From assembly GCF_028869115.1 (NCBI RefSeq), contig NZ_CP079800.1:992001-1056000 (forward strand): 64,000 nt of DNA, written 5' to 3'. This DNA is from Pseudemcibacter aquimaris. GTDB taxonomy: Bacteria; Pseudomonadota; Alphaproteobacteria; Sphingomonadales; Emcibacteraceae. The notes under the pieces are model-generated. The model did no database searches and was not told the origin of the DNA. It saw nothing but the letters and a program-made list of their open reading frames with translations. The position numbers were made by a program, and so were the translations under genes. Every line of letters starts with the position of its first letter. Positions within the stretch are counted from its first letter, which is position 1. Of the stretch, positions 19,005-51,501 are shown piece by piece.

Positions 19005-20058
19005 GATCTTTCCAAGATTTATATGATGCTCTGAAACTTTGTAAAGATTCCCACGCGCGTTTGAAATCCGGGTCCTTTGCGGCTTCTTCTTCTGCGACTT
19101 CTAACCATGCGGCTTCAAAGGCTTGCATGATTTCACCTGGCCATTCATGAAAGATTGTTCCGGATTGTTTCAATTTATTGATGGCTTCTGCTTGCAAGGC
19201 TTCACCATTTGCAATGCCAAAACGCATATTGTCACCGCATGTCATATTGATTTGCGCTTTTTGTAAATCGGATAGGCTTTCCCATTTTTCAAGATTAATC
19301 ATCAATTCAAAAAATGTGGATTGTTGATGCCATCCGGGGAAATAATAATGTTTCGCGACCTTATCAAAACCGAGCTTTTCATCTACGGCAGGTACGGAAA
19401 ATTCTGTAGCGTCAATGGCGCCCAGTTCAAGCGCAGGGAATATATCACCCGTCGCGAGTAACTGTGTGGAAACGCCAAGTTTGCTCATCACACGTGCACC
19501 AAGGCCAAAGAAACGCATTCTTAAACCTTTAAGATCATCAAGGGTTTTGATCTCTTCTTTAAACCAGCCGGATGCTTCGGGTGGGCTGATGCCGCAAATG
19601 ATGCCGTGGATGTTATGTTGGTGGTAAATATCTTCATAAATTTCTTTACCGCCGCCTTCGTAATACCATGCCATATATTCTGGTGCGTCTGGGCCAAATG
19701 GAATGGCAGCAAAGGTTTGGAGGGCAGGGACCTTACCGCTCCAGAAGCCGGGGGATGACCATGCTGAATCAAGCGCGCCATATGATACAGCGTCAAATGT
19801 TTCAAGCGGTGGTGAAAGCGCGCCCGGTTCAAAAAAACGGAAAGTAATATTACCGTTTGAAATGATAGCTATTTGTTCTTCAAACCGTTTAGCCATGGTA
19901 CCCAGTATAGTAAGCGTACTTGGGTATGTGCTGGCCAGTTTTAAGTTTACAGGGTCGTTATCCTGGTTTTGGACGGTTTCTGTGTTTTCTGGTGTACCAC
20001 ATGAAAATAGAAAGGCAGACATAATTGTCGTGCTGACTATGTGCTTAAAATTCAACAT
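18979..20058 (-). CDS. dctP: TRAP transporter substrate-binding lipoprotein
   Basis: A 359-residue DctP-type solute receptor. It is a lipoprotein: the signal ends SAFLFSC with the lipidated cysteine at residue 20, so the receptor is membrane-tethered. The family segments include VNLKLASTYPSTLTILGTMAKRF in part (ASTYPSTLTILG), LDDLKGLRMRFFGLGARVMSKLG near residue 175 (in part LKGLRMRF, with the ligand-binding arginine) and PALELGAIDATEFSVPAVDEKLGF. The GAIDATE-type sequence is common in receptors for keto acids and related anions. Its ATG overlaps the stop of the upstream coiled-coil gene (TAATG). Confidence 0.92.
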   Translation of the reverse strand: MLNFKHIVSTTIMSAFLFSCGTPENTETVQNQDNDPVNLKLASTYPSTLTILGTMAKRFEEQIAIISNGNITFRFFEPGALSPPLETFDAVSYGALDSAWSSPGFWSGKVPALQTFAAIPFGPDAPEYMAWYYEGGGKEIYEDIYHQHNIHGIICGISPPEASGWFKEEIKTLDDLKGLRMRFFGLGARVMSKLGVSTQLLATGDIFPALELGAIDATEFSVPAVDEKLGFDKVAKHYYFPGWHQQSTFFELMINLEKWESLSDLQKAQINMTCGDNMRFGIANGEALQAEAINKLKQSGTIFHEWPGEIMQAFEAAWLEVAEEEAAKDPDFKRAWESLQSFRASYKSWKDLGYIKADN

Positions 20059-22046
20059 TATGAATTTAAACGACCTGTGGCATCAGCAAGAACGAAATAA
20101 ACCTTGCCGACATCAGAAGTGACTAAAGTTTCACGGTATAGGTCATCGGAATTTTCAGTGAACGTACCGAGCATTTCTTCGAATAATTGTAAGAAGCTAT
20201 CGGTGTTCATTCTGAAGTCTCTATCTTCTAAATAATGTTTTCGAAGTTCCGCGGTTGTTTTCTTGCCGATGTGTTTTTTAATGCGGCGGATAAACAGATT
20301 TTTATCACCGGAAATATATTTATCCCATAATTCCTTCGGAATATCGCCATCCAAATATTTTGCGATATCAATTGAGCCGGATTGAAGCTTTTCCATGATT
20401 TTTTCTGAAACGTCGGAAAATCTTTCTGCATTAATTCTTTTTAAGCGTTTTTCAATAGCCTCTGCATTTGTGGCGAGGCTCTGACTTGAAAACTGGATGG
20501 CATTGATCATCTGCTGATATTTCTCAGCGTTTTGGTCAAGGGCATAATTGGTTTCCTCTACAGCCTCTACGGCAGCGTTGGATGCAACGTGAATGCGGTC
20601 GGAAGTGCGGAGTAGGTCATTTGAAATACGTTTAATTTTATCTTCTGATGAATGAACGCTTTTTGCTGTGCTTCTTTCAATGGTCGCCACTTCTTCAAGC
20701 ATCGTTTCAAGTTTTTTCATATTTTCCGCATGTTCACGGCGTACATGGTTCGCTGCATTTAACCAAGTATTGATGATGCTTGTTGTGTTTTCTTCTTGAT
20801 TAATCAGATTCTCACTGGCCTTAAGGCTGGCGTTTTCAATTTCGCGGATACCATTTTTGCTACGGTTTTGAATATCAATGATTTGATCATTAACATCAGC
20901 AGAAAGTGAGAGAATATTTTCAATAATTTTTTGCCCGTGCGCGCCAAGTCGGGTCGAATTATTGTTCATCTTATCAATCGCAACGGCAAGGCCGTCTTCG
21001 ATAACATTTACGCAAGAAAGAATGTTTTTATGTTGCTTGTTAAATTCTTCTTCGGCGCCTTCAATTCGGGTGCTGAATTCATTCGCGAATTCTTTAAAGA
21101 GCTGATGTTCATTTCCAAGACTATCTGATCGTTCTTGAATATGCTTTTTGGTTTCTTCGAGAGTGCTTTCGATTTTTTCTGACTGCGATTGAATGGTGCT
21201 TAATGTGTCGCGTACATGTGTTTCAATAGTATCAAGATTTCCAGAAAGCAATTCACCCATCCGGCTGTTTCCTTGATCGACTTCCGTTTCGAGTGACTGG
21301 AAGTGTTCAGAAATATTGTCGCGCATTGCATTAGTGTTTTCAGAAAGATTGTTTTGAACGTCATCAAGCCCTTGCGTAATTTGTTCTTCTATCTTTCCGG
21401 TGATGTTGCCTAGCTCATTAACTGTTTCAGTATAATGTTCGCTGGCTTCAGTGATGCTTTTTTTGCTTTTTTCGGTGACAGATTTAACGGCTTCTTCCAT
21501 CGCAGTGGCTTTTTTCGCAATGTTATCTGCGCTCGCGTCAATGCCGCTTATGGAATTTTCACTAATGGTAGAGAGTTGTTCAATCTGTTCTTTCAGTGAA
21601 TTAAACTTGTCTGTGGCCTGATCACCAGCAGCATCAATTTTTTCAATTTCCTGCTGCATATTTTCAATAACTTTATTTATGCGGTCTTGTGTGACTTCCA
21701 CAGGGCTTAATAATTGATCTAATCCCGTTTCTAGGGCACGTCTGTTTTCTTCGATTGGATTAATACGTAAAATAACCAAGCAAATCATCCAAATGATAAT
21801 TATTGGGGCGGATACGCCCATGATAAGTGATGCAATCTCGACGATATTGCCACCAAATTCATATGATGAATTTGCAAGATAAAAGATACATACTGAAAGC
21901 CAAATTACCGATAGTAAGGAAGATAGAGTAACTGGCCAATTTCTTACGAATGATTTTTTCGGCAACTCATTGGTGTTTGAGTGTTTGACGGAAGAAGGGT
22001 GTGCCGTGACCACCTGTCTTGATCGTGCGCCTTTATTTTCACTCAT
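20058..22046 (-). CDS. Membrane-anchored coiled-coil protein (TipN-like architecture)
   Basis: A 662-residue protein. Two transmembrane helices lie near residues 36-59 (VTLSSLLSVIWLSVCIFYLA) and 68-92 (EIASLIMGVSAPIIIIWMIC). They are followed by about 470 residues of uninterrupted heptad-type sequence rich in Glu, Lys, Gln, Asn and Ser, then a folded C-terminal region from about residue 550 (IAKYLDGDIPKELWDKYISG, then TDSFLQLFEEMLGTF). Two N-terminal helices with a long cytoplasmic coiled coil is the layout of the Caulobacter polarity factor TipN, but I cannot claim homology. A gene beside receiver, HPt and flagellar genes could plausibly mark the pole. It is translationally coupled to dctP (TAATG), which is odd for a structural protein. 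Confidence 0.65.
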   Translation of the reverse strand: MSENKGARSRQVVTAHPSSVKHSNTNELPKKSFVRNWPVTLSSLLSVIWLSVCIFYLANSSYEFGGNIVEIASLIMGVSAPIIIIWMICLVILRINPIEENRRALETGLDQLLSPVEVTQDRINKVIENMQQEIEKIDAAGDQATDKFNSLKEQIEQLSTISENSISGIDASADNIAKKATAMEEAVKSVTEKSKKSITEASEHYTETVNELGNITGKIEEQITQGLDDVQNNLSENTNAMRDNISEHFQSLETEVDQGNSRMGELLSGNLDTIETHVRDTLSTIQSQSEKIESTLEETKKHIQERSDSLGNEHQLFKEFANEFSTRIEGAEEEFNKQHKNILSCVNVIEDGLAVAIDKMNNNSTRLGAHGQKIIENILSLSADVNDQIIDIQNRSKNGIREIENASLKASENLINQEENTTSIINTWLNAANHVRREHAENMKKLETMLEEVATIERSTAKSVHSSEDKIKRISNDLLRTSDRIHVASNAAVEAVEETNYALDQNAEKYQQMINAIQFSSQSLATNAEAIEKRLKRINAERFSDVSEKIMEKLQSGSIDIAKYLDGDIPKELWDKYISGDKNLFIRRIKKHIGKKTTAELRKHYLEDRDFRMNTDSFLQLFEEMLGTFTENSDDLYRETLVTSDVGKVYFVLADATGRLNS

Positions 22047-23330: not shown

Positions 23331-23338
23331 GTTGCTAT
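23314..23338. terminator. Hairpin between convergent genes
   Basis: ATAGCAAC and GTTGCTAT pair around a 9-base A-rich loop and are followed on the + strand by a T-rich run. It overlaps the HPt stop codon and touches the stop of the opposite gene, so it can serve both directions. Confidence 0.65.
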
Positions 23339-25011
23339 TTTTCTTTTCTTTTATCTTTCAACCACTTTTGAAATTTTGGTGCCTGTTCTTCCATGAATTC
23401 CGGCCACGGATCGTTGATACCTTTGAAAAGCACTCTTTTATTTGTTTGATAAGGTAAGTATTCTTCATGAAAAATCCACCATGGATCGCCGGCTGAGAAA
23501 ATCCAACTTTCAACACCTGCCATACCAGATTGCATAAGCGGTGCTGATGCTGGTCCCATCACTAAATCAAGTGATGTCATCATCGCAGTAGTGCCTTCGA
23601 TATCATTTTTTAAATCTAAGCCTTCTATTTGGTGAATTTTAATGCCGGTTTCTTTTTCCAGTTCTTCCAGTTCATCTTTGCAGTCACCATATTGTACATT
23701 GACGAAATTAATATTTTTTTCCTTTAGGAACGGAACCCAGTCAAGAATGCTTGCATAGTTTCTGGCACGTTTTGCATATTGAAGTCCACTTCGCCACGCA
23801 ATGCCTACAGAAATATCATGCGGCAGTTTTTCAATTTCTATTTGCCATTTATCTACAATTTCAGGGTTAGGTTTAAGAGTAGGCTTGTTATTTATTTGAA
23901 TATCTTCTTTATTATGCCAATATTGGCCCATTAAATCACCAGCCATAAATAAATAATCATATTCTTCTATTTCGAGGTCTGGACAAGTATATATATTATA
24001 ATCAAGTTTTTTGTTTAATAGAAAAACTGTACTACCAACATCAGCATTTGGAAAACTGTATTTGAATAAATTTACAAGCCTATCTTGACAGGATAGACCA
24101 ACTTTTTTTGCATCTTTAATAACTTGATTATAAAGCCAAGCAAATTGAATTTCGTCACCAATCCCTTGTTCGGCAAAAATAAGGATCTTTTTATCTTTTA
24201 AATCTTGGCCATTCCAATACGGCTTGCCGTGATATCTAAGTGAATAATTAAAATGCAGACGGGTTTTTCTGCCTTTATAATAATCCCATGCTTTATCATA
24301 TTGGTTTTGTTTGACGTAAAAATTAAATAAAAATAACTTAGGGTCAGCTTGATTTGGATCCAGTTTTAACGCTTTTAAACCTGCTTCTTCAGCCTTCTTG
24401 TATTCGCCAACGGAATAATATGCTGGTCCAATATTATTTAATACCTGTTTGTTGTTTGGGTCTATTTTAAGTGCTTCTTCATAAAAAACGATAGCGTGCC
24501 CAGGGCCATCTCGAAAGCCTACGGTAGCGCCTAACGTATTCCAGAGCGCATCTTTATCGGGGAAAATTGGAATAACATCTTTTAAAAAGTCAATGGCTTC
24601 ATCTAGTTGTCCTGCTTCGCGTAATGCGGTGGCATAGTTGTTATAAGGAACAATTTCACCAGGTTCTAACTGCATATGAAGGTTATGAAATTTTAACGCC
24701 AGGTCAAAATAATTTAGGCTAAGTGCAGTATTGCCCAATATGGATGCAATGTTGGGGTTATCTGGATTTTTTTGCAGCACATGTTCAAGTAAATTCATGG
24801 AAGCAGTCTTATTGCCGTTTTTCGCAAGACAGTCGGCGACAGCAATAGAAACCTTTGCGTCCGTATCGTCATACTTCCAAGCGGATGTAAAGTACTGTAA
24901 AGCTTCCAGGTTTTTACCTTGTTTATGAAGTTTAAAGCCCATTCTTACTTGTTTATTGTATTGGGCTCTGTTTTTTGGTGCTGTTAATTTTCCAGTCTGT
25001 TTTTTTGCCAT
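23335..25011 (-). CDS. TPR protein with glycosyltransferase-like C-terminal half
   Basis: A 558-residue protein. Residues 20-250 hold TPR units (GFKLHKQGKNLEALQYFTSA, ISIAV-type helices, LKFHNLHMQLEPGEIVPYNN, VLNNIGPAYYSVGEYKKAEE). Residues 275-550 have the ILIFAEQGIGDEIQFAWLYN motif near residue 278 and VSVGIAWRSG-like HDISVGIAWRSGLQYAKRA near residue 405, a pattern of GT41/heptosyltransferase-like enzymes fused to TPRs. Such proteins often sit next to flagellins in alphaproteobacteria, and the next gene on this side is flbT followed by the flagellins. Flagellin glycosylation is the likely role, by inference. No donor-sugar genes are nearby. Confidence 0.75.
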   Translation of the reverse strand: MAKKQTGKLTAPKNRAQYNKQVRMGFKLHKQGKNLEALQYFTSAWKYDDTDAKVSIAVADCLAKNGNKTASMNLLEHVLQKNPDNPNIASILGNTALSLNYFDLALKFHNLHMQLEPGEIVPYNNYATALREAGQLDEAIDFLKDVIPIFPDKDALWNTLGATVGFRDGPGHAIVFYEEALKIDPNNKQVLNNIGPAYYSVGEYKKAEEAGLKALKLDPNQADPKLFLFNFYVKQNQYDKAWDYYKGRKTRLHFNYSLRYHGKPYWNGQDLKDKKILIFAEQGIGDEIQFAWLYNQVIKDAKKVGLSCQDRLVNLFKYSFPNADVGSTVFLLNKKLDYNIYTCPDLEIEEYDYLFMAGDLMGQYWHNKEDIQINNKPTLKPNPEIVDKWQIEIEKLPHDISVGIAWRSGLQYAKRARNYASILDWVPFLKEKNINFVNVQYGDCKDELEELEKETGIKIHQIEGLDLKNDIEGTTAMMTSLDLVMGPASAPLMQSGMAGVESWIFSAGDPWWIFHEEYLPYQTNKRVLFKGINDPWPEFMEEQAPKFQKWLKDKRKEK

Positions 25012-25174: not shown

Positions 25175-25570
25175 ATGGCTTTAAAATTGTCATTAAAACC
25201 GGGAGAGAAGTTCGTCGTTAACGGGGCAGTGATCGTTAATGGTGACAGACGAAGCACATTAGTCCTGCAAAATAAAGCATCACTTTTAAGGGAAAAGGAT
25301 ATTTTACTGGCTGAAGATGTCGATACACCAGTAAAGCATGTATATTTCCCAATTATGTTGATGTACATGGATCCGGATGGATACAAAAAGTATCATGAAC
25401 AATTTGTTCTTCGAATGACGGAGTTTCTAAGTGTTGTAGAAGATGCTGAAACTAAATTACTTTGTGTTGCAATCAGTAAGGATGTCATGGACGGGGAATT
25501 TTATAAAGCGTTAATGAAATGCAAAAAGCTATTCAAATACGAGCAATCGAGATTGGCATATGAAGAGTAA
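25175..25570 (+). CDS. flbT: Flagellin mRNA regulator FlbT
   Basis: A 131-residue protein matching FlbT: start LKLSLKPGEKFVVNGAVI, middle DRRSTLVLQNKASLLREKDI and the VKHVYFPIMLMY segment near residue 51. In Caulobacter FlbT binds the 5' leader of flagellin mRNA and blocks translation until the hook is finished. Its own ribosome-binding site is AAAGGAA. It overlaps flaF by 11 bases and lies directly ahead of the flagellins, three of which share a structured leader that could be its target. Confidence 0.93.
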   Translation: MALKLSLKPGEKFVVNGAVIVNGDRRSTLVLQNKASLLREKDILLAEDVDTPVKHVYFPIMLMYMDPDGYKKYHEQFVLRMTEFLSVVEDAETKLLCVAISKDVMDGEFYKALMKCKKLFKYEQSRLAYEE

Positions 25571-26027
25571 CCCTTATCAGCAATCGATACAAAAAACTGA
25601 ATCGCCACAGCAAACCGAATACCGACTGTTTGTTGAAGTGACACGTGCCTTAATGGATGCTAAAGATCTTGAGAAAACAGATCCAAAGCTTCATGATGCG
25701 TTACACTGGAACAGGCGTATGTGGTCCACTTTTGCAACCGATTGTGCGATTGAAGGAAATAAATTACCGAAAATGCTTCGGGCACAAATTATTTCGCTTT
25801 CTATTTGGGTAGGGAAGCATAGTTCAAAAATTATTCGTGAAGATGAAGATATTCAAGCACTCATTGATGTGAACAAAACGGTAATGGAAGGGCTCGCCAT
25901 GCAAGAACGCAATGCAGCTGGACAAAACCAGACAACACCTCAAGGGAATCAAACCGCACCATCTGCACCAGAGGCGGGCAATAATCCTGCAGCTCGGGCA
26001 GGATCTAGTGCATCAATTAAAGTATAA
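25560..26027 (+). CDS. flaF: Flagellin synthesis regulator FlaF
   Basis: A 155-residue protein of the FlaF family. Conserved marks: NPYQQSIQKTESPQQTEYRLF near the start (in part ESPQQTEYRLF), LHDALHWNRRMWSTFATDC near residue 46, and LRAQIISLSIWVGKHSSKI near residue 77. FlaF promotes flagellin translation or secretion and works against FlbT. The C-terminal 45 residues are a low-complexity Gln/Pro/Ala/Asn tail that is longer than usual for the family. It is coupled to flbT by an 11-base overlap. Confidence 0.92.
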   Translation: MKSNPYQQSIQKTESPQQTEYRLFVEVTRALMDAKDLEKTDPKLHDALHWNRRMWSTFATDCAIEGNKLPKMLRAQIISLSIWVGKHSSKIIREDEDIQALIDVNKTVMEGLAMQERNAAGQNQTTPQGNQTAPSAPEAGNNPAARAGSSASIKV

Positions 26028-26268: not shown

Positions 26269-27084
26269 ATGGGTTTTTCCGTAAATACAAATGCAGGCGC
26301 ACTCGTCGCTTTGCAAAATCTTAATAAGACAAATTCGCAGCTCAATGCTGTACAGAGCAAGATTAACACTGGTCTAAAAGTATCTGGTGCTAAAGATGAT
26401 GCATCGATTTTTGCGATTGCGCAAAAACAACGTGCAGAACTTGGTGGGCTTTCAGCAGTACAATCCAGTCTTGATCGTGCAACTGGCGCACTTGATGTTG
26501 CGATTGCCGGTGCCGAAGCTGTTTCGGATCTTCTTATTCAAATGAAAGAGAAGGCGGTAGCATCTAAGGACTCTGGTAATGATACAGCTTCCAGAACACT
26601 GTTGAATAACGATTATTAGCAACTGTTATCACAAATCGATACAATTGTTGATAATGCTGAATTTAACGGCAGAAATTCGCTTAATGGTACTGATGATGTC
26701 GTAGCGATCGTGAATGCTGATGCTTCCAGTGATATTACTGTTACTGCACAAGGGCTAAATGCAAGTTCTCTTGGTGTTAGTGGTGGTACTATTGCGACAG
26801 CAGGCGGCGCAAGCGATGCTGTTGACGCAATTGATACTGCGATTAACCAGGTTAACTCAGCGTTATCAGCGCTTGGTGCTGGTGCCAAACGTATCGAGGT
26901 TGTTGGATCGTTCGTTGAAAAACTATCTGACGCTATCGAAATTGGTATTGGTAATCTTGTGGATGCAGACTTGGCTCGTGAAAGCGCGAACTTGCAATCG
27001 TTGCAGGTGAAGCAGCAGCTAGGTTTGCAGGCGCTATCTATTGCCAATCAGGCTCCTGGAACAGTGCTCTCACTCTTCAGATAA
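26269..27084 (+). pseudogene. Flagellin 1, interrupted by an amber codon
   Basis: A flagellin of 271 codons, the same length as the intact copy at 27680 and nearly identical to it at both conserved ends. A TAG at 26617-26619 stands at codon 117, where the other two plus-strand copies have CAG or CAA (Gln) in NDYQQL. So a single C-to-T change explains it. Beyond the stop the frame continues without fault to the conserved flagellin end (LQALSIANQAPGTVLSLFR). The truncated product would lack the C-terminal D0 helix and could not polymerise. A hairpin at 27101-27123 follows. Either a silent gene or a base error. Confidence 0.9.
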
Positions 27085-27168: not shown

Positions 27169-27582
27169 ATGGTTGATGGATTAAACACATATGGCGCGGG
27201 TGCTACCGTTGCTGGTGTTGTTCAGCAAGCGGCCACCCCTCAAAAAAGAGAAGGTGGCGCAGCCACTGAAAAAACCGAAGCACGTCCTGAAGAGACGAAA
27301 GCGGACCAGGCCCAAACCATAAAGAATCTTCTTGCTGAAGAAACTAAAGGTAAAGGTGACTTTATCAGTCAAGCAGAAGCCATTTTAAACAAGGCTTTAT
27401 CCTTGAAATCAATCAATACGAAATTGAGTATTGATGTGGATGATGGATCAGGACTTTTTGTTTATAAAGGCATCGATAAAAAATCTGGTGAAGTCGTTTC
27501 TCAATTCCCTGCGGAAGAGATATTAGCATTAATTTCATATTATCGCGAAGCAGAAGGATTAGTGGTCGATGAGACCGCTTAA
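27169..27582 (+). CDS. flaG: FlaG family protein
   Basis: A 137-residue soluble protein. The first 65 residues are a charged low-complexity stretch (Glu, Thr, Ala, Lys). The C-terminal half has the FlaG fold signature: a strand TKLSIDVDDGSGLFVYKGIDKKSGEVV, in part LFVYKGIDKKSGEVVSQFP near residue 94, then the PAEEILALI end, equivalent to the family's IPSEEVL. FlaG proteins affect filament length or flagellin assembly. It lies between two flagellins. A good ribosome-binding site (AAGAGGA) precedes the ATG. Confidence 0.82.
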   Translation: MVDGLNTYGAGATVAGVVQQAATPQKREGGAATEKTEARPEETKADQAQTIKNLLAEETKGKGDFISQAEAILNKALSLKSINTKLSIDVDDGSGLFVYKGIDKKSGEVVSQFPAEEILALISYYREAEGLVVDETA

Positions 27583-27679: not shown

Positions 27680-28495
27680 ATGGGTTTTTCCGTAAATACA
27701 AATGCTGGTGCTCTCGTAGCACTGCAAAACTTAAACAAAACTAACGCACAGCTTAACACTGTGCAAAGTAAAATTAACACTGGTCTTAAAGTGGCGGGTG
27801 CCAAGGACGATGCGTCTATTTTCGCGATTGCGCAAAAGCAACGTGCTGAACTTGGTGGTCTATCTGCTGTACAATCAAGTCTTGATCGTGCAACAGGTGC
27901 ACTTGATGTTGCCATTGCTGGTGCCGAGGCGGTTTCCGATCTTCTAATTCAAATGAAAGAGAAGGCGGTTGCTTCTAAGGATGCTGGTAATGACGCGACT
28001 TCACGTGGTCTTCTGGACAATGACTATCAGCAATTGGTTGCTCAAATCAATACTATCGTGAACAACGCCGAATTTAACGGCCGTAATTCACTTAATGGTA
28101 CTGATGATATTGTTGCAATCGTGAATGCTGATGCATCAAGTCAAATTAGTGTTGCTGCACAAGATCTTACAGCAACTACACTGAACCTTGATGATACAAC
28201 TATTGATTCAGAAACAGATGCAACTACTGCATTGACTGCGATTGAAAACGCGATCGATACTGTTAATACCTCACTATCAGCACTTGGTGCTGGCGCAAAA
28301 CGTGTTGAAGTGGTTGGCTCATTCGTTGAGAAACTATCAGACGCTATTGAGGTTGGTATTGGTAACCTTGTGGATGCCGATCTGGCTAGAGAAAGTGCGA
28401 ACTTGCAATCGTTGCAGGTTAAGCAGCAACTTGGTTTGCAGGCGCTTTCAATTGCCAACCAAGCCCCAGGAACAGTGCTATCACTCTTCCGTTAA
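27680..28495 (+). CDS. Flagellin 2 (the only intact flagellin here)
   Basis: A 271-residue flagellin. The N-terminal D0/D1 helices (GFSVNTNAGALVALQNLNKT, INTGLKV, AKDDASIFAIAQKQRAELGG) and C-terminal helices (GNLVDADLARESANLQSLQVKQQLG, in part VDADLARESANLQSLQ, ending PGTVLSLFR) are complete. The middle, about residues 145-190, is short and variable among the paralogues. At this length it has no large D2/D3 domains, as usual in alphaproteobacteria. It carries leader element copy 2. In this window it is the only flagellin with both ends and no stop. Confidence 0.95.
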   Translation: MGFSVNTNAGALVALQNLNKTNAQLNTVQSKINTGLKVAGAKDDASIFAIAQKQRAELGGLSAVQSSLDRATGALDVAIAGAEAVSDLLIQMKEKAVASKDAGNDATSRGLLDNDYQQLVAQINTIVNNAEFNGRNSLNGTDDIVAIVNADASSQISVAAQDLTATTLNLDDTTIDSETDATTALTAIENAIDTVNTSLSALGAGAKRVEVVGSFVEKLSDAIEVGIGNLVDADLARESANLQSLQVKQQLGLQALSIANQAPGTVLSLFR

Positions 28496-28586: not shown

Positions 28587-29164
28587 ATGGGTTTTTCTGT
28601 TAATACAAATGCTGGTGCACTCGTTGCCCTGCAAAATCTTAACAAAACCAATATGCAGCTTAACGCTGTACAAAGCAAAATCAACACTGGTCTTAAAGTG
28701 TCTGGTGCCAAAGATGATGCGTCTATTTTTGCGATCGCGCAAAAGCAACGTGCTGAACTTGGCGGCCTTTCTGCTGTAACGTCCAGTCTTGATCGTGCAA
28801 CTGGTGCGCTTGATGTTGCCATCGCTGGTGCTGAAGCGGCTTCTGACCTTCTTATTCAAATGAAAGAGAAGGCTGTAGCAGCTAAAGATTCTGGTAATGA
28901 TACAGCGTCAAGAACACTATTGGATAATGATTATCAACAATTGCTATCTCAAATTGATACCATTGTGAATAACGCTGAATTTAACGGTCGTAATTCACTT
29001 GATGGTACTGATGATATTGTTGCGATCGTGAATGCGGATGCTTCCAGTGACATTACTGTTACTGCACAGGATCTAAACGCGACGGCACTTGGAATTAACG
29101 GCAGTGATATTACAACTGCTGGAAATGCTAGTGATGCTGTGGCTGATATTGATACAGCGATTAA
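28587..29164 (+). pseudogene. Flagellin 3, C-terminus missing at an inverted junction
   Basis: The first 192 or so residues match flagellins 1 and 2 closely through ASDAVADIDTAIK. At about 29161-29166 the homology stops abruptly. The sequence after it is the reverse complement of another flagellin gene. The frame then runs a few more meaningless codons to a TGA at 29187-29189. About 78 residues, the whole C-terminal D0/D1 part, are lost, so the product should not assemble. It carries leader element copy 3. Real deletion or assembly join cannot be told apart here. Confidence 0.85.
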
Positions 29165-29771
29165 GAACAGCGTTCACGTTTGCGAGTGAGTTTTCAACAT
29201 CAGTTACAGCTGCTACGGCATCCGTAAGAGTGGCAATAGTTTGTGTTGCAGTAATATCAACATTACCACCGCCAAGAGTTAGATCTTCGTGTGCGATTGT
29301 GATCTTTTGCTGTGCATCAGGGCTTGTAATTGCCACGATGATATCAGTACCACCATCAATAAGGTTTGTGCCGTTAAATTCAGCATTTGTTGTGATGGTT
29401 GTGATTTGATCGCGAAGTGCCTCAAAGTCTTGCGCAAGTGCCGTACGGCTGTCCGTATCTAGACCAGCATCCGCCGCAGCAACAGCTTTCTCTTTCATTT
29501 CGATCAAGAGATCCGAAATAGAACTTGATGCAGCAAGTGCGATATCAATTGTACTGATGGAACGATCAAGACTTTGTTTTACCGCATTATAACCTCTAAG
29601 ATCAGCACGTAGTTGCTGAGCGATCGAGTAAACGGCAGCATTGTCTTTCGCTGATGAAATGCGAAGACCTGTATTAATTCTTGTTTGTGTTCCATCTAAA
29701 CTTTTTGTTGTTGCGTTTAGATTTTGTAGTGCACTTAAAGCACTAGCGTTTGTATTAACTGAAAAGCCCAT
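29161..29771 (-). pseudogene. Flagellin 4 (other subtype), C-terminus missing at the same junction
   Basis: A flagellin on the opposite strand. The start GFSVNTNASALSALQNLNAT, INTGLRISSAKDNAAVYSIA and the NAEFNGTNLIDGG segment place it in a different subtype from the other three, nearer to the usual alphaproteobacterial filament flagellins. True sequence ends at NSLANVNAVLN, about residue 203, where it meets flagellin 3 tail to tail. The open frame continues antisense through flagellin 3 to 29073 without meaning. It has its own sigma54 promoter and a plain AGGAGAG ribosome-binding site, and it lacks the CTCTAGAATGGAG leader. So it is controlled differently. Confidence 0.85.
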
Positions 29772-29840: not shown

Positions 29841-29856
29841 TGCAAATAGCGTGCCA
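29841..29856 (-). promoter_or_regulatory. Sigma54 promoter of flagellin 4
   Basis: On the minus strand: TGGCACGCTATTTGCA, an exact match to the RpoN consensus TGGCAC-N5-TTGCA, 70 bases before the ATG. Late flagellar genes of alphaproteobacteria are commonly driven by sigma54 with FlbD. Confidence 0.85.
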
Positions 29857-33490: not shown

Positions 33491-33994
33491 ATGACATTAA
33501 TTAAAAATTCTATCGTAATATTTTTATCCACAATTTTTTTAATTTCATGCACAGAACAAAAAGATATGGAATACACAGAAGACCGTGGTTTTGAGGTCAA
33601 CGAGCGATCATATCAATTGGGAATGTTAAGTGGCTTTGGCGAATTCGTTAAAGGGGGGATTAAACCACTTTCCGTCAGTACTTCTTTTTCATCATCAGAT
33701 ATGGATATTATTTATCCTGATTTGGAAATTGTCGCAAAAAGGTTAGGGATTAAAGTTTACCGGGAAACATCACCAATGGAAACGGACCTATTCCCATTTT
33801 CAAGGGATGAGATTGTCATTTTTTATATGGGTGATGTGCTTGATCAATATCTGGCCGTAAAGGCACGTAAACAAGCACTTCTTGATAATGACCAATATGT
33901 TGGTGAGGCCAGAAGACAAATCGCATATGATTTTGGAAAGCTGATGGGCTATTCCGATGAGGGTATCGAACAATTCTTGAGTTCTAGTGAATAA
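33491..33994 (+). CDS. Hypothetical lipoprotein
   Basis: A 167-residue lipoprotein of unknown function. The signal sequence ends STIFLISC with the lipidated cysteine at residue 20. The mature part is acidic and mixed alpha/beta, with a basic segment AVKARKQALLD near residue 120 and a C-terminal helix GKLMGYSDEGIEQFLSSS. It is followed 27 bases on by another exported protein. The two stand where I would expect flgH and flgA. A clear ribosome-binding site (GTGAGGGA) precedes the ATG. Confidence 0.65.
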   Translation: MTLIKNSIVIFLSTIFLISCTEQKDMEYTEDRGFEVNERSYQLGMLSGFGEFVKGGIKPLSVSTSFSSSDMDIIYPDLEIVAKRLGIKVYRETSPMETDLFPFSRDEIVIFYMGDVLDQYLAVKARKQALLDNDQYVGEARRQIAYDFGKLMGYSDEGIEQFLSSSE

Positions 33995-34021
33995 TAAATA
34001 TTGATTTTAAAAGGTTTTATT

Positions 34022-34483
34022 ATGAAAAAAACAATTTTAATTACGCTTTCATTTCTGCTTGCAGTTTTTGCACAAACTATCAATGCGACTGCAGCGGATG
34101 ATGCGCCGCCAGTGATCGCAGAATGGCAGAAATTCTGGAACACATACGATCTTGATCAAATGAATGAATTATTTATCAATAGTGATAGTCTGACCTATTT
34201 TTCATCAGAAAAAGAAGGTTTGATCAGGGGCTATGAAGAAATGATCGAACACCATAAAGGGTTCGGCTTTGTGCCTGGCGGTAAACAATCGGAGGCAAAA
34301 TTATGGCTCGAAAACATCGAAACAGATTACATCGGTGATATTGCCGTGGTTGCGGCGATCTGGAAATTTGATGTTTTTCGTGATGGCAAACAAGTGTTAA
34401 TGCGCGGTCCTGTTAGCTTTATTTGTTCGAAAGACAGTAACGGTAAATTCAAATTGCACCATGTGAATTTTTCGAACTATTGA
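34022..34483 (+). CDS. Exported NTF2/SnoaL-like protein
   Basis: A 153-residue protein with a signal peptide (residues 1-22, ending NATAAD). The body follows the cone-shaped NTF2/SnoaL fold pattern: VIAEWQKFWNTYDLDQMNELF, in part WQKFWNTYDLDQMNELF near residue 33, then GLIRGYEEMIEHHKGF, and two strands with AVVAAIWKFDVFRDGKQVLMRGPVSFIC, in part VLMRGPVSFIC near residue 127. Such domains act as small-molecule binders or enzymes. I use the ATG at 34022 (MKKTILI). Its stop is only about 30 bases from the broken end of flgG. Confidence 0.7.
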   Translation: MKKTILITLSFLLAVFAQTINATAADDAPPVIAEWQKFWNTYDLDQMNELFINSDSLTYFSSEKEGLIRGYEEMIEHHKGFGFVPGGKQSEAKLWLENIETDYIGDIAVVAAIWKFDVFRDGKQVLMRGPVSFICSKDSNGKFKLHHVNFSNY

Positions 34484-34503: not shown

Positions 34504-34779
34504 TCAGGTATATGAATTTACAAGCTCGCCTTGTGATGTCACGCGGTAAACACCGGCTGTTCTAACACCAACACCGATTTGAATACCGGTTGGGACCACT
34601 GTACCGGCATCTGATGATGCGGCACCGGCGCTTTCAATGTTTTGATAAAGCAAATCTTGAAACTCTGCGCGCTGACGTTTGTAAGCGGTGGTGTTCATAT
34701 TTGCGATGTTGTTGGAAATGACCTCAACATTTAACTGTTGAGCGAGCATTCCTGTGGCTGCGATACTAAGGGCTTTCAT
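34504..34779 (-). pseudogene. flgG: Distal rod protein FlgG, truncated after about 88 residues
   Basis: The start [20 protein letters not shown], then [24 protein letters not shown] and [20 protein letters not shown], is unmistakable FlgG. After VTSQGELVN (about residue 88) the expected TGNPLD-type continuation is absent and three stray codons lead to a stop. FlgG is normally near 260 residues, so two thirds are gone. Beyond the break lie two plus-strand genes unrelated to flagella. flgA and flgH, which often follow flgG, are not here. The cell could not build a complete rod unless another copy exists. Deletion with replacement, or an assembly join near 34513. Confidence 0.9.
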
Positions 34780-45671: not shown

Positions 45672-46100
45672 ATGGATTTAAAGAACATTTCATTGTTCAA
45701 AACTCTCAACCAGAAAATGACCTGGCTGAATGAGAGGTAAGAAGTCCTGGCACAGAATATTGCCAATGCGAACACGCCGGGCTATATCGCCCAGGATCTG
45801 GAAGAAGTCAGTTTCGAACAGCACTTGAATAGAACAAATGAGACCGAAAGCGGTCAAAGAAAAACAGTTATGAAGACGAGTGATCCAAGACATTTAAACG
45901 CGTCTGGTGCGTCATCTTCAGGATTTGAAATTAGACAGACGACATCGGATTATATGATTTCAACACCAGATGGAAATACAGTTGATCTAGAGCGTGAGTT
46001 ATCAAAAATGGCAGAAGTCCAAATGGAATATACGCTCGCCAGTAATCTGTATAAAAAACATATTGGTATGATTAAGATGTCACTGGGTAGAAGACAATAA
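45672..46100 (+). pseudogene. flgB: Rod protein FlgB, interrupted by an ochre codon
   Basis: The frame from ATG 45672 encodes 142 codons of FlgB. A TAA at 45738-45740 stands at codon 23, just after MTWLNER and before EVLAQNIANANTPGY, where FlgB proteins have Gln (ERQ). A C-to-T change from CAA explains it. The rest is intact: EVSFEQHLNRT, DPRHLNASG and the end MAEVQMEYTLASNLYKKH. Restart within the gene would drop the N-terminal rod helix. FlgB is needed for the rod, so the gene as read is non-functional unless the stop is read through or is a base error. Confidence 0.92.
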
Positions 46101-49086: not shown

Positions 49087-51501
49087 ATGGGAAAAATAGA
49101 AAAATCAATGTCGTTTGATTATGGTTTTTTTGTTTCTATGGCAGCCATTGGGGCAATAATATCCTGTGCAACGTTTTTGGGGTTTTATGGCGCCGGAATG
49201 GCTGGCGTAGGATATATTGCATCCTCAATTATATTGGTTCTTACTTGTGTTGTACTTTTATTTCAGGTTCGAAAGGCGCGTACCAGCATCAGTCTATTTT
49301 CCCCTAAGCAGGAAGTGTTGAAAAATGATCAAGCTGGCGTGGCAATGATGATGACTTCAATGGCGGGTGATGTGGTTTATTCCAATAAATCGGCCAAAAG
49401 TTTGTTTGAAACCTATAACCTTGGCGAGCCGAAATCACCGTTAAAACTTCAAATTTCGAATTTAAAAGCACTTAAGCACCTGCTTGAAGAAATGAAAGTA
49501 GGTAAAACGGGCTTTGTTGTGTCCGAGGTCGGCGAAAGCGGTAATTACCTCAAGTTTGAAGTAGAGAAAATCTATCAAAATGGTGATTTCTATTCCTGGC
49601 GTATATTTGAAAGCGGTGAGGGCGGTAGTTCAATTGAACAATCAAGCGGTTCACAGGATGGCCACATAAAAACGGGCCAAGCATTTGATAATACGGGCAT
49701 TGGTTTTTTTGTTGTGGATGAAAAAGAAAATATTATCCATGCCAATAAGCATTTCCTTAAAATTATTTTTGGTGAAGATAAACGTCCGGATTTCCCATTT
49801 AAACTTGCGCGCGTTACTGATCATACGAAAAGCAATTTAAAAGATTTGGTGCATTTTAATGTTAGCGGCAAGCCATTAGAGTGCTTTGTTAATAAATGGA
49901 ATAATGACAGCAGTGACGAGCATAGCTGTTATCTGTTTTTTGATCAGCCATATATTTCCGGACGCAATGAAACGAATATTCCGGTCAGTAATAATGAATT
50001 CTTTCTAAATTCACCAATTGGTATCGCGGTTGTGGATATTAAAGGGAATATCCGTGAAAAAAATATTGTATTTGGAAATTTTATTTCTGCGCTTGAGCTT
50101 GAAAGAACGGATAATATTAAGGATTTTCTAGCAGATGAAAATGCAAAGGTCGTAATAAAGGCGATTAAAAGAACAATTCTTACGGGCAATCCAAGCGACC
50201 GCATTGAGCTTAATTTACAAGGCGAAAGCGCAAAGCAAGGACAGTTTTATATCACCCGTGCCAGTGAAATGATTGAAGGCGGGAATGAGGCGGTTATTTA
50301 TCTTCATGATATTACGGAACAGAAAAACCTTGAACTGCAGTTTTCCCAGTCGCAGAAAATGCAAGCTGTTGGCCAGCTAGCGGGTGGTGTTGCTCACGAT
50401 TTTAATAACCTTCTGACGGCGATTACGGGATTCTGTGACTTGTTACTTGTAAAACATGGACCGGGTGATCAGTCATTTTCTGATATTATTCAGATTAAGT
50501 AGAATGCGAACCGTGCGGCTAACCTTGTACGTCAACTCTTGGCTTTCTCACGTCAACAGACGCTTCGTCCAAAAGTTATTATTATGACGGATGTTGTGGC
50601 TGAACTTTCAAACCTATTAAGGCGTCTTATTGGTAGTAATATTGAATTAAGCATGAACCATGGCCGCAATATTGCCCCGGTTCGTGTGGACCAAGGCCAG
50701 CTCGAACAGGTTATTATTAATTTATGTGTGAATGCCCGTGATGCGATGCCGGATGGTGGTAAGCTTGAAATTAAAACCAGAAATATTTCCGAAGAGGACT
50801 CGTTGAAAGTCACCAAGAAGCACAAAATATTCCCGAAAGGGGAATATATTATGCTTGAGGTCATCGATACAGGTACGGGGATTGAGGAAGAACATCAAAA
50901 CAAGGTGTTCGAACCGTTCTTTAGCACCAAAGATGTGGGTAAAGGGACCGGGCTTGGTCTTTCAACTGTTTACGGTATTATCAAGCAAACAAACGGTTTC
51001 GTGTTCCTTGAGAGTGAAATCGGTGTGGGAACATCGTTTAAAATTTATCTACCGAAATATGTTGAAAGTGCGCAAGATGCGGCCGATGCCGCCGCCGCGG
51101 ATGCCGCGAAAGAAGAAAAGGCAAAGGATCTTACCGGAAGCAGCACCATTTTACTGGTTGAGGACGAAGATGCCGTTCGCATGTTCGCATCCCGTGCATT
51201 AAAGAATAAAGGTTACACGGTTTATGAAGCTGATAGTGGGGTTTCCGCGCTCGAGGTCATTGAAAAAGAAGATATCCATCTTGATCTATTAATCAGTGAT
51301 GTAATGATGCCGCAAATGGATGGGCCGACACTTGTGCGTAAAATCCGGGAAACTGATAAAGAATTAAAAGTGATCTTTATATCCGGTTACGCGGAAGATG
51401 CGCTTGATGATAATATCATGGATAAAGATTTCAATTTCCTATCCAAACCATTCAGTCTTAAGCAGCTTGCGGAACAGGTGAAAGAGGTTCTCGAGAAGTA
51501 A
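49087..51501 (+). pseudogene. cckA: Cell-cycle hybrid kinase CckA, interrupted by an amber codon
   Basis: The intact frame has 804 codons: two membrane helices (about residues 14-60), PAS-like sensor regions to about 410, the DHp helix [20 protein letters not shown] with phosphoacceptor H437, a catalytic ATPase domain (VNARDAMPDGG, GTGLGLSTVYGI) and a receiver with the aspartate in LLISDVMMPQMDG. A TAG at 50500-50502 (codon 472) stands in QIK-stop-NANRAANLVRQLL, where CckA proteins have Gln. A C-to-T change from CAG explains it. The first product would have the histidine but no ATPase domain. CckA is essential in Caulobacter, so this is either a base error, a lineage able to do without CckA, or two chains acting in trans. 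Confidence 0.92.

Follow-up and report, generated by a model that had tools for sequence, protein, structure and literature searches.

Tail-to-tail junction of two flagellin remnants in Pseudemcibacter aquimaris and the decay of its flagellar system

Two convergent flagellin genes of P. aquimaris (genome G000), fla3 on the + strand and fla4 on the − strand, are joined tail to tail, and neither retains its C-terminal part. A real chromosomal deletion of multi-kilobase size, which occurred under relaxed selection for motility, very probably created this junction, rather than a collapse in the assembly. The junction is one scar among several in a wider, recent decay of the flagellar system. The window, which is the whole 64,000-nucleotide stretch that was analyzed (G000:C1:992001-1056000), belongs to a closed genome consisting of one contig of 3.37 Mb with an estimated completeness of 100%. 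The searched collection contained 12 further genomes of the genus, and these congeners are metagenome-assembled genomes (MAGs) labelled Emcibacteraceae or Alphaproteobacteria. We also used one genome from another genus of the same family (G013) and two outgroup genomes (G014 and G015). A tree of conserved neighbor genes places G000 inside the genus, with a value of 100% for the split of the genus and weak values of 60–87% for the inner splits.

The junction and the interval between flagellins in relatives

The fla3 remnant (29162 being its last position; 28587..29162, + strand) retains 192 residues, and the fla4 remnant (29163..29771, − strand) retains 203 residues, compared with about 276 in its orthologues. 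Both match positions 1–137 of the 139-position Flagellin_N profile (PF00669; E values of 4.7e-28 for fla3 and 5.1e-30 for fla4), and neither gives a match to Flagellin_C (PF00700). Because the Flagellin_C domain is absent, fla3 and fla4 are classed as flagellin remnants and not as complete flagellins. Alignment with paralogues and orthologues indicates that the last authentic codon of fla3 is the ATT ending at 29162 (residue 192), and that of fla4 is the CTT at 29163–29165 (residue 203), after which the fla4 orthologues continue with T-R-L-G-A-G-G-K. Past the junction, each open reading frame continues into the antisense strand of the other gene: that of fla3 (28587–29189) up to 29189, and that of fla4 (29073–29771) down to 29073. 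The earlier note had described two flagellins fused at about 29161–29166, both cut close to where the C-terminal helices begin, an arrangement that the alignments confirm to the single base as a deletion-type scar. The TTAA that it proposed as a microhomology is indeed present at 29161–29164, but the overlap of the two sides, judged from the codons of paralogues and orthologues, is at most 3 nt (TAA, 29162..29164), which is barely above chance.

A C-terminal query of the closed genome detected four flagellin C-termini, each in a gene with its own N-terminal part, and no orphan flagellin C-terminus. Since all four belong to flagellin genes, the ends of fla3 and fla4 are truly absent from the assembly and have not moved elsewhere. 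When the junction DNA was searched across the genus, the only full-length match was G000 itself.

The cluster in the window contains four flagellin genes. Besides the two remnants, fla1 (26269..27081, +) carries an in-frame TAG at 26617–26619, where fla2 has CAG, and fla2 (27680..28495, +) is intact and matches both flagellin domains. They are accompanied by FlbT (25175..25570, +), FlaF (25560..26027, +), and a FlaG-like protein whose match is below the curated cut-off (27169..27582, +). A candidate FlmG-like TPR flagellin glycosyltransferase (23335..25011, −), assigned from its TPR architecture and its context beside the flagellin genes, is full length (558 aa) and shows 49–53% identity to its congeneric counterparts. 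A long coiled-coil-like protein at 20058–22046 of the window has 662 aa in G000 versus 857–860 aa in G009 and G010, and it has the longest G000 branch among the genes compared. A whole fla4-type flagellin gene, 82% identical to the fla4 remnant, lies amid non-flagellar genes at G000:C1:2322174-2322995 (L037), and no counterpart was seen in the congeners examined.

Flagellin-bearing congeners share a common gene order, in which the FlmG-like gene, flbT, flaF, one or more flagellins, and flaG are followed, beyond an interval, by fla4, an unnamed gene, flgJ, flgI, fliX, and dksA. Wherever this interval is readable in congeners, the two convergent flagellin 3′ ends lie 5.3–12.9 kb apart. In G009, G010, and G011, a single contig carries whole + strand flagellins and a whole − strand fla4, the nearest two of which are separated by an island of 5.3 to 11.4 kb (5.8 kb in G011, counted from its single + strand flagellin). 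The same island is present in G006, where the contig starts inside the last codons of the + strand flagellin, and in G008, where it extends more than 14 kb from fla4 and the + strand flagellin is on a separate contig. The island encodes functions for a nonulosonic acid of the pseudaminic type. A PseB-like gene always adjoins fla4, PseI (NeuB family) is present, and PseF, PseG, PseC, GNAT, and other enzymes vary. The island also occurs in G013, and it is absent at this locus in G014 and G015; in G015, flaG is the sole gene separating the convergent flagellins, and G014 has a similar arrangement.

A genome-wide search of G000 for the NeuB/PseI family gave no match, whereas the control genomes were positive. 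The family was found in 9 of the 10 flagellin-bearing relatives searched, the exception being G004, in which the contig stops shortly after fla4. Thus, of the two components of FlmG-type glycosylation, G000 has the FlmG-like TPR gene beside its flagellins and lacks the NeuB/PseI synthase. Because G000 falls, in the tree of conserved neighbors, within a genus in which the inner branches have the island, the simplest history is that its ancestor had the island as well, and the absence of NeuB agrees with its loss.

The deletion removed both C-terminal domains and most likely, as the comparison with congeners indicates, also the pseudaminic-type sugar island between the convergent genes. The broken ends were probably joined with a microhomology of at most 3 nt, rather than by excision of a hairpin. 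We somewhat favor loss of both flagellin ends and the island in a single event, but the loss may also have proceeded stepwise. Because the outgroups G014 and G015 lack an island at this locus, it is also possible that the ancestor was without one and that less DNA was deleted. In Caulobacter, NeuB is required for filament assembly (PMC7591256). Therefore, if the FlmG-like system works as in Caulobacter, losing the island should by itself be enough to prevent a filament from forming.

Other lesions in the flagellar system

The FlgG gene in the window is reduced to a remnant of 91 of 261 residues (34504..34779, −; 95–97% identity), and flgA and flgH, which are adjacent in congeners, are gone. 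The site that holds the flgG 3′ end, flgA, and flgH in congeners is occupied in G000 by two unrelated open reading frames (33491..34483, +), one for an unknown protein of 167 aa and one for a DUF4440 protein of 160 aa, which had no match in the congener loci examined. Neither FlgH nor a full-length FlgG was found genome-wide in G000, whereas every flagellin-bearing congener searched has both. Outside the window, flgE contains an in-frame TAG and is fused to flhA (G000:C1:349824-350894, L197; junction at about G000:C1:349825), the flhA part of which starts at residue 111. The genes for a sigma-54 activator, MotA, FliN, FliG, and FliF, which lie between flgE and flhA in G009, are gone from that site. 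This fusion has the same form as that of fla3 and fla4: in each case, a deletion spanning several genes begins and ends within a flagellar gene.

Premature stops also occur in flgB (45672..46100, +; in-frame TAA at 45738–45740) and in a gene for a CckA-type hybrid histidine kinase (49087..51501, +; in-frame TAG at 50500–50502). Like fla1, flgB is otherwise well conserved. A solute-binding protein gene, also otherwise well conserved, has a premature TGA at window position 517. The conserved coding sequence of the window, 55 kb in total, contains four premature stops, whereas 84 kb of such sequence flanking the window on both sides contain none (probability of about 0.02 by proportion). Of the four affected genes, three are flagellar or linked to the flagellum. 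Reassignment of a stop codon was considered as an explanation of these stops but dismissed, since each of TAG, TAA, and TGA is found both as a premature stop and at the end of conserved genes in the window.

With FlgH missing, FlgG truncated, flgE fused to flhA, and several genes interrupted by stops, a number of core genes are lost or disrupted, and G000 can probably no longer build a flagellum. The cell would then be non-flagellated. Selection for motility appears to have ceased, so the scar is likely to carry no function of its own.

Alternative origins of the junction

The earlier note had explained the junction by a palindrome, in which whole convergent flagellins formed a long inverted repeat through their conserved 3′ ends, a hotspot of deletion in cells or a point of collapse in assemblies. 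As a cellular event, this would mean the excision of about 0.6–1 kb with no island involved, which we regard as unlikely, although it is the best of the alternatives. The arrangement in the outgroups, with flaG alone between the convergent flagellins of G015, speaks for it; every congener with a readable interval, by contrast, has the island there, and NeuB is entirely gone from G000. The would-be arms are also poorly matched. In congeners, the terminal 250 nt at the 3′ ends of + and − strand flagellin genes are 60–71% identical, with longest exact runs of 8–15 nt. Arms with such identity, such short runs, and such spacing are not known to extrude hairpins or to collapse in assemblies. A long, near-identical, closely spaced inverted repeat is thus not what the congeners contain, as judged from them rather than from the ancestor itself. 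Because they do not exhibit the ancestral arrangement that the palindrome needs, the proposal is unsupported. A literature search for flagellin palindromes found nothing. The G000 scar resembles palindrome-stimulated deletion in having two inverted paralogous genes, and it differs in that the corresponding arms in congeners have diverged too much and lie too far from each other.

An artefact of assembly or amplification, in which both genes are whole in the cell and the interval was dropped by the assembler, appears improbable, more so than the palindrome. Flagellin repeats do break contigs: those of G004 (C120), G006 (C84 and C334), and G008 (C169 and C174) end within or right next to flagellin genes, as expected for repeated genes in short-read assemblies. 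However, G000 is a single, apparently complete contig, and the lost interval would be largely unique sequence. NeuB is absent everywhere in this genome, and deletions and stops are also found at unrelated flagellar sites.

It is very improbable that the truncated flagellins are kept because they have a function, for instance in regulation or as decoys. Both remnants are open, and a predicted sigma-54-type promoter sequence, TGGCACGCTATTTGC, was found by a pattern scan upstream of the fla4 remnant (29842..29856, −). In contrast, genes for the hook, rod, and L-ring are disrupted or absent, the remnant frames end in antisense sequence, and a stop interrupts fla1, which is otherwise conserved; the open frames are explained by the recency of the decay. 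An inversion between flagellins of the same orientation, the N-to-N junction of which would by itself look identical, can practically be dismissed, since all four C-termini sit in genes with their own N-terminal parts, the C-terminal query of G000 did not find a reciprocal C-to-C flagellin junction elsewhere, and the gene order on either side agrees with that of congeners.

Age of the decay, its stages in the genus, and known systems

The decay that produced the deletion in G000 must be recent, as judged from the sequences, because the remnants have retained open frames and are still highly identical to their counterparts (92% to G008 for fla4) and the intact flagellar genes show no acceleration. 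Faster protein evolution of the intact flagellar genes in G000 was tested relative to G010 and not seen: the values were 0.174/0.126 changes per site for intact flagellar genes and 0.190/0.136 for the other genes of G000. Relaxed selection is therefore visible only as lesions, which points to the same recency. The decay may have arisen in culture.

In several members of the genus, the loss of the flagellum is further advanced. No flagellin is detectable in five congeners (G001, G002, G003, G005, and G007), and where their flagellar locus is readable, it is more eroded than that of G000. In G001, a FlmG-like remnant is directly joined to a fliX remnant, and G005 retains a fragment of flgH. The CckA-type kinase gene is whole in flagellated species and persists as C-terminal remnants in G001, G005, and G007; it gave no match in G002 and G003. 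It is about an even question whether, within the genus, this kinase gene beside the flagellar operon decays along with the flagellum. Its decay fits the report that CckA and CtrA are non-essential in several other alphaproteobacteria (PMC3692519). If the relation is true, the kinase would serve motility only here and would not be needed for the cell cycle. The genus would then offer a naturally occurring series of steps in the loss of the flagellum, of which the flagellin fusion is one.

The collapse of a palindrome is thus replaced by a concrete history, in which motility was probably lost recently and, with it, the ends of two flagellins and a glycosylation island. The process is ordinary, and the case is of moderate use as a member of a decay series in a single genus, which allows the stages of flagellar decay, including the loss of the CckA-type kinase, to be compared. 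It also calls for caution: even when a closed genome contains many flagellar genes, and three of its flagellins are intact, the cell may lack a flagellum.

The presence of an FlmG-like TPR gene adjoining flbT and flaF, and of Pse genes beside the flagellins in congeners, resembles the cytoplasmic FlmG-NeuB glycosylation of Caulobacter crescentus (PMC7591256). In G000, the FlmG-like gene is kept whereas NeuB is lost. Flagellar genes are known to decay in bacteria that lose motility; examples are the accelerated gene loss of Shigella (PMC2374995) and passaged Campylobacter jejuni, which lost motility with a deletion of rpoN (PMC7677240). As in these systems, disruptive mutations and deletions build up once motility is no longer selected. 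In contrast to them, the decay described here concerns a marine genus of Emcibacteraceae in which the same locus is seen at several stages in congeners, and it includes two deletions with both ends within flagellar genes.
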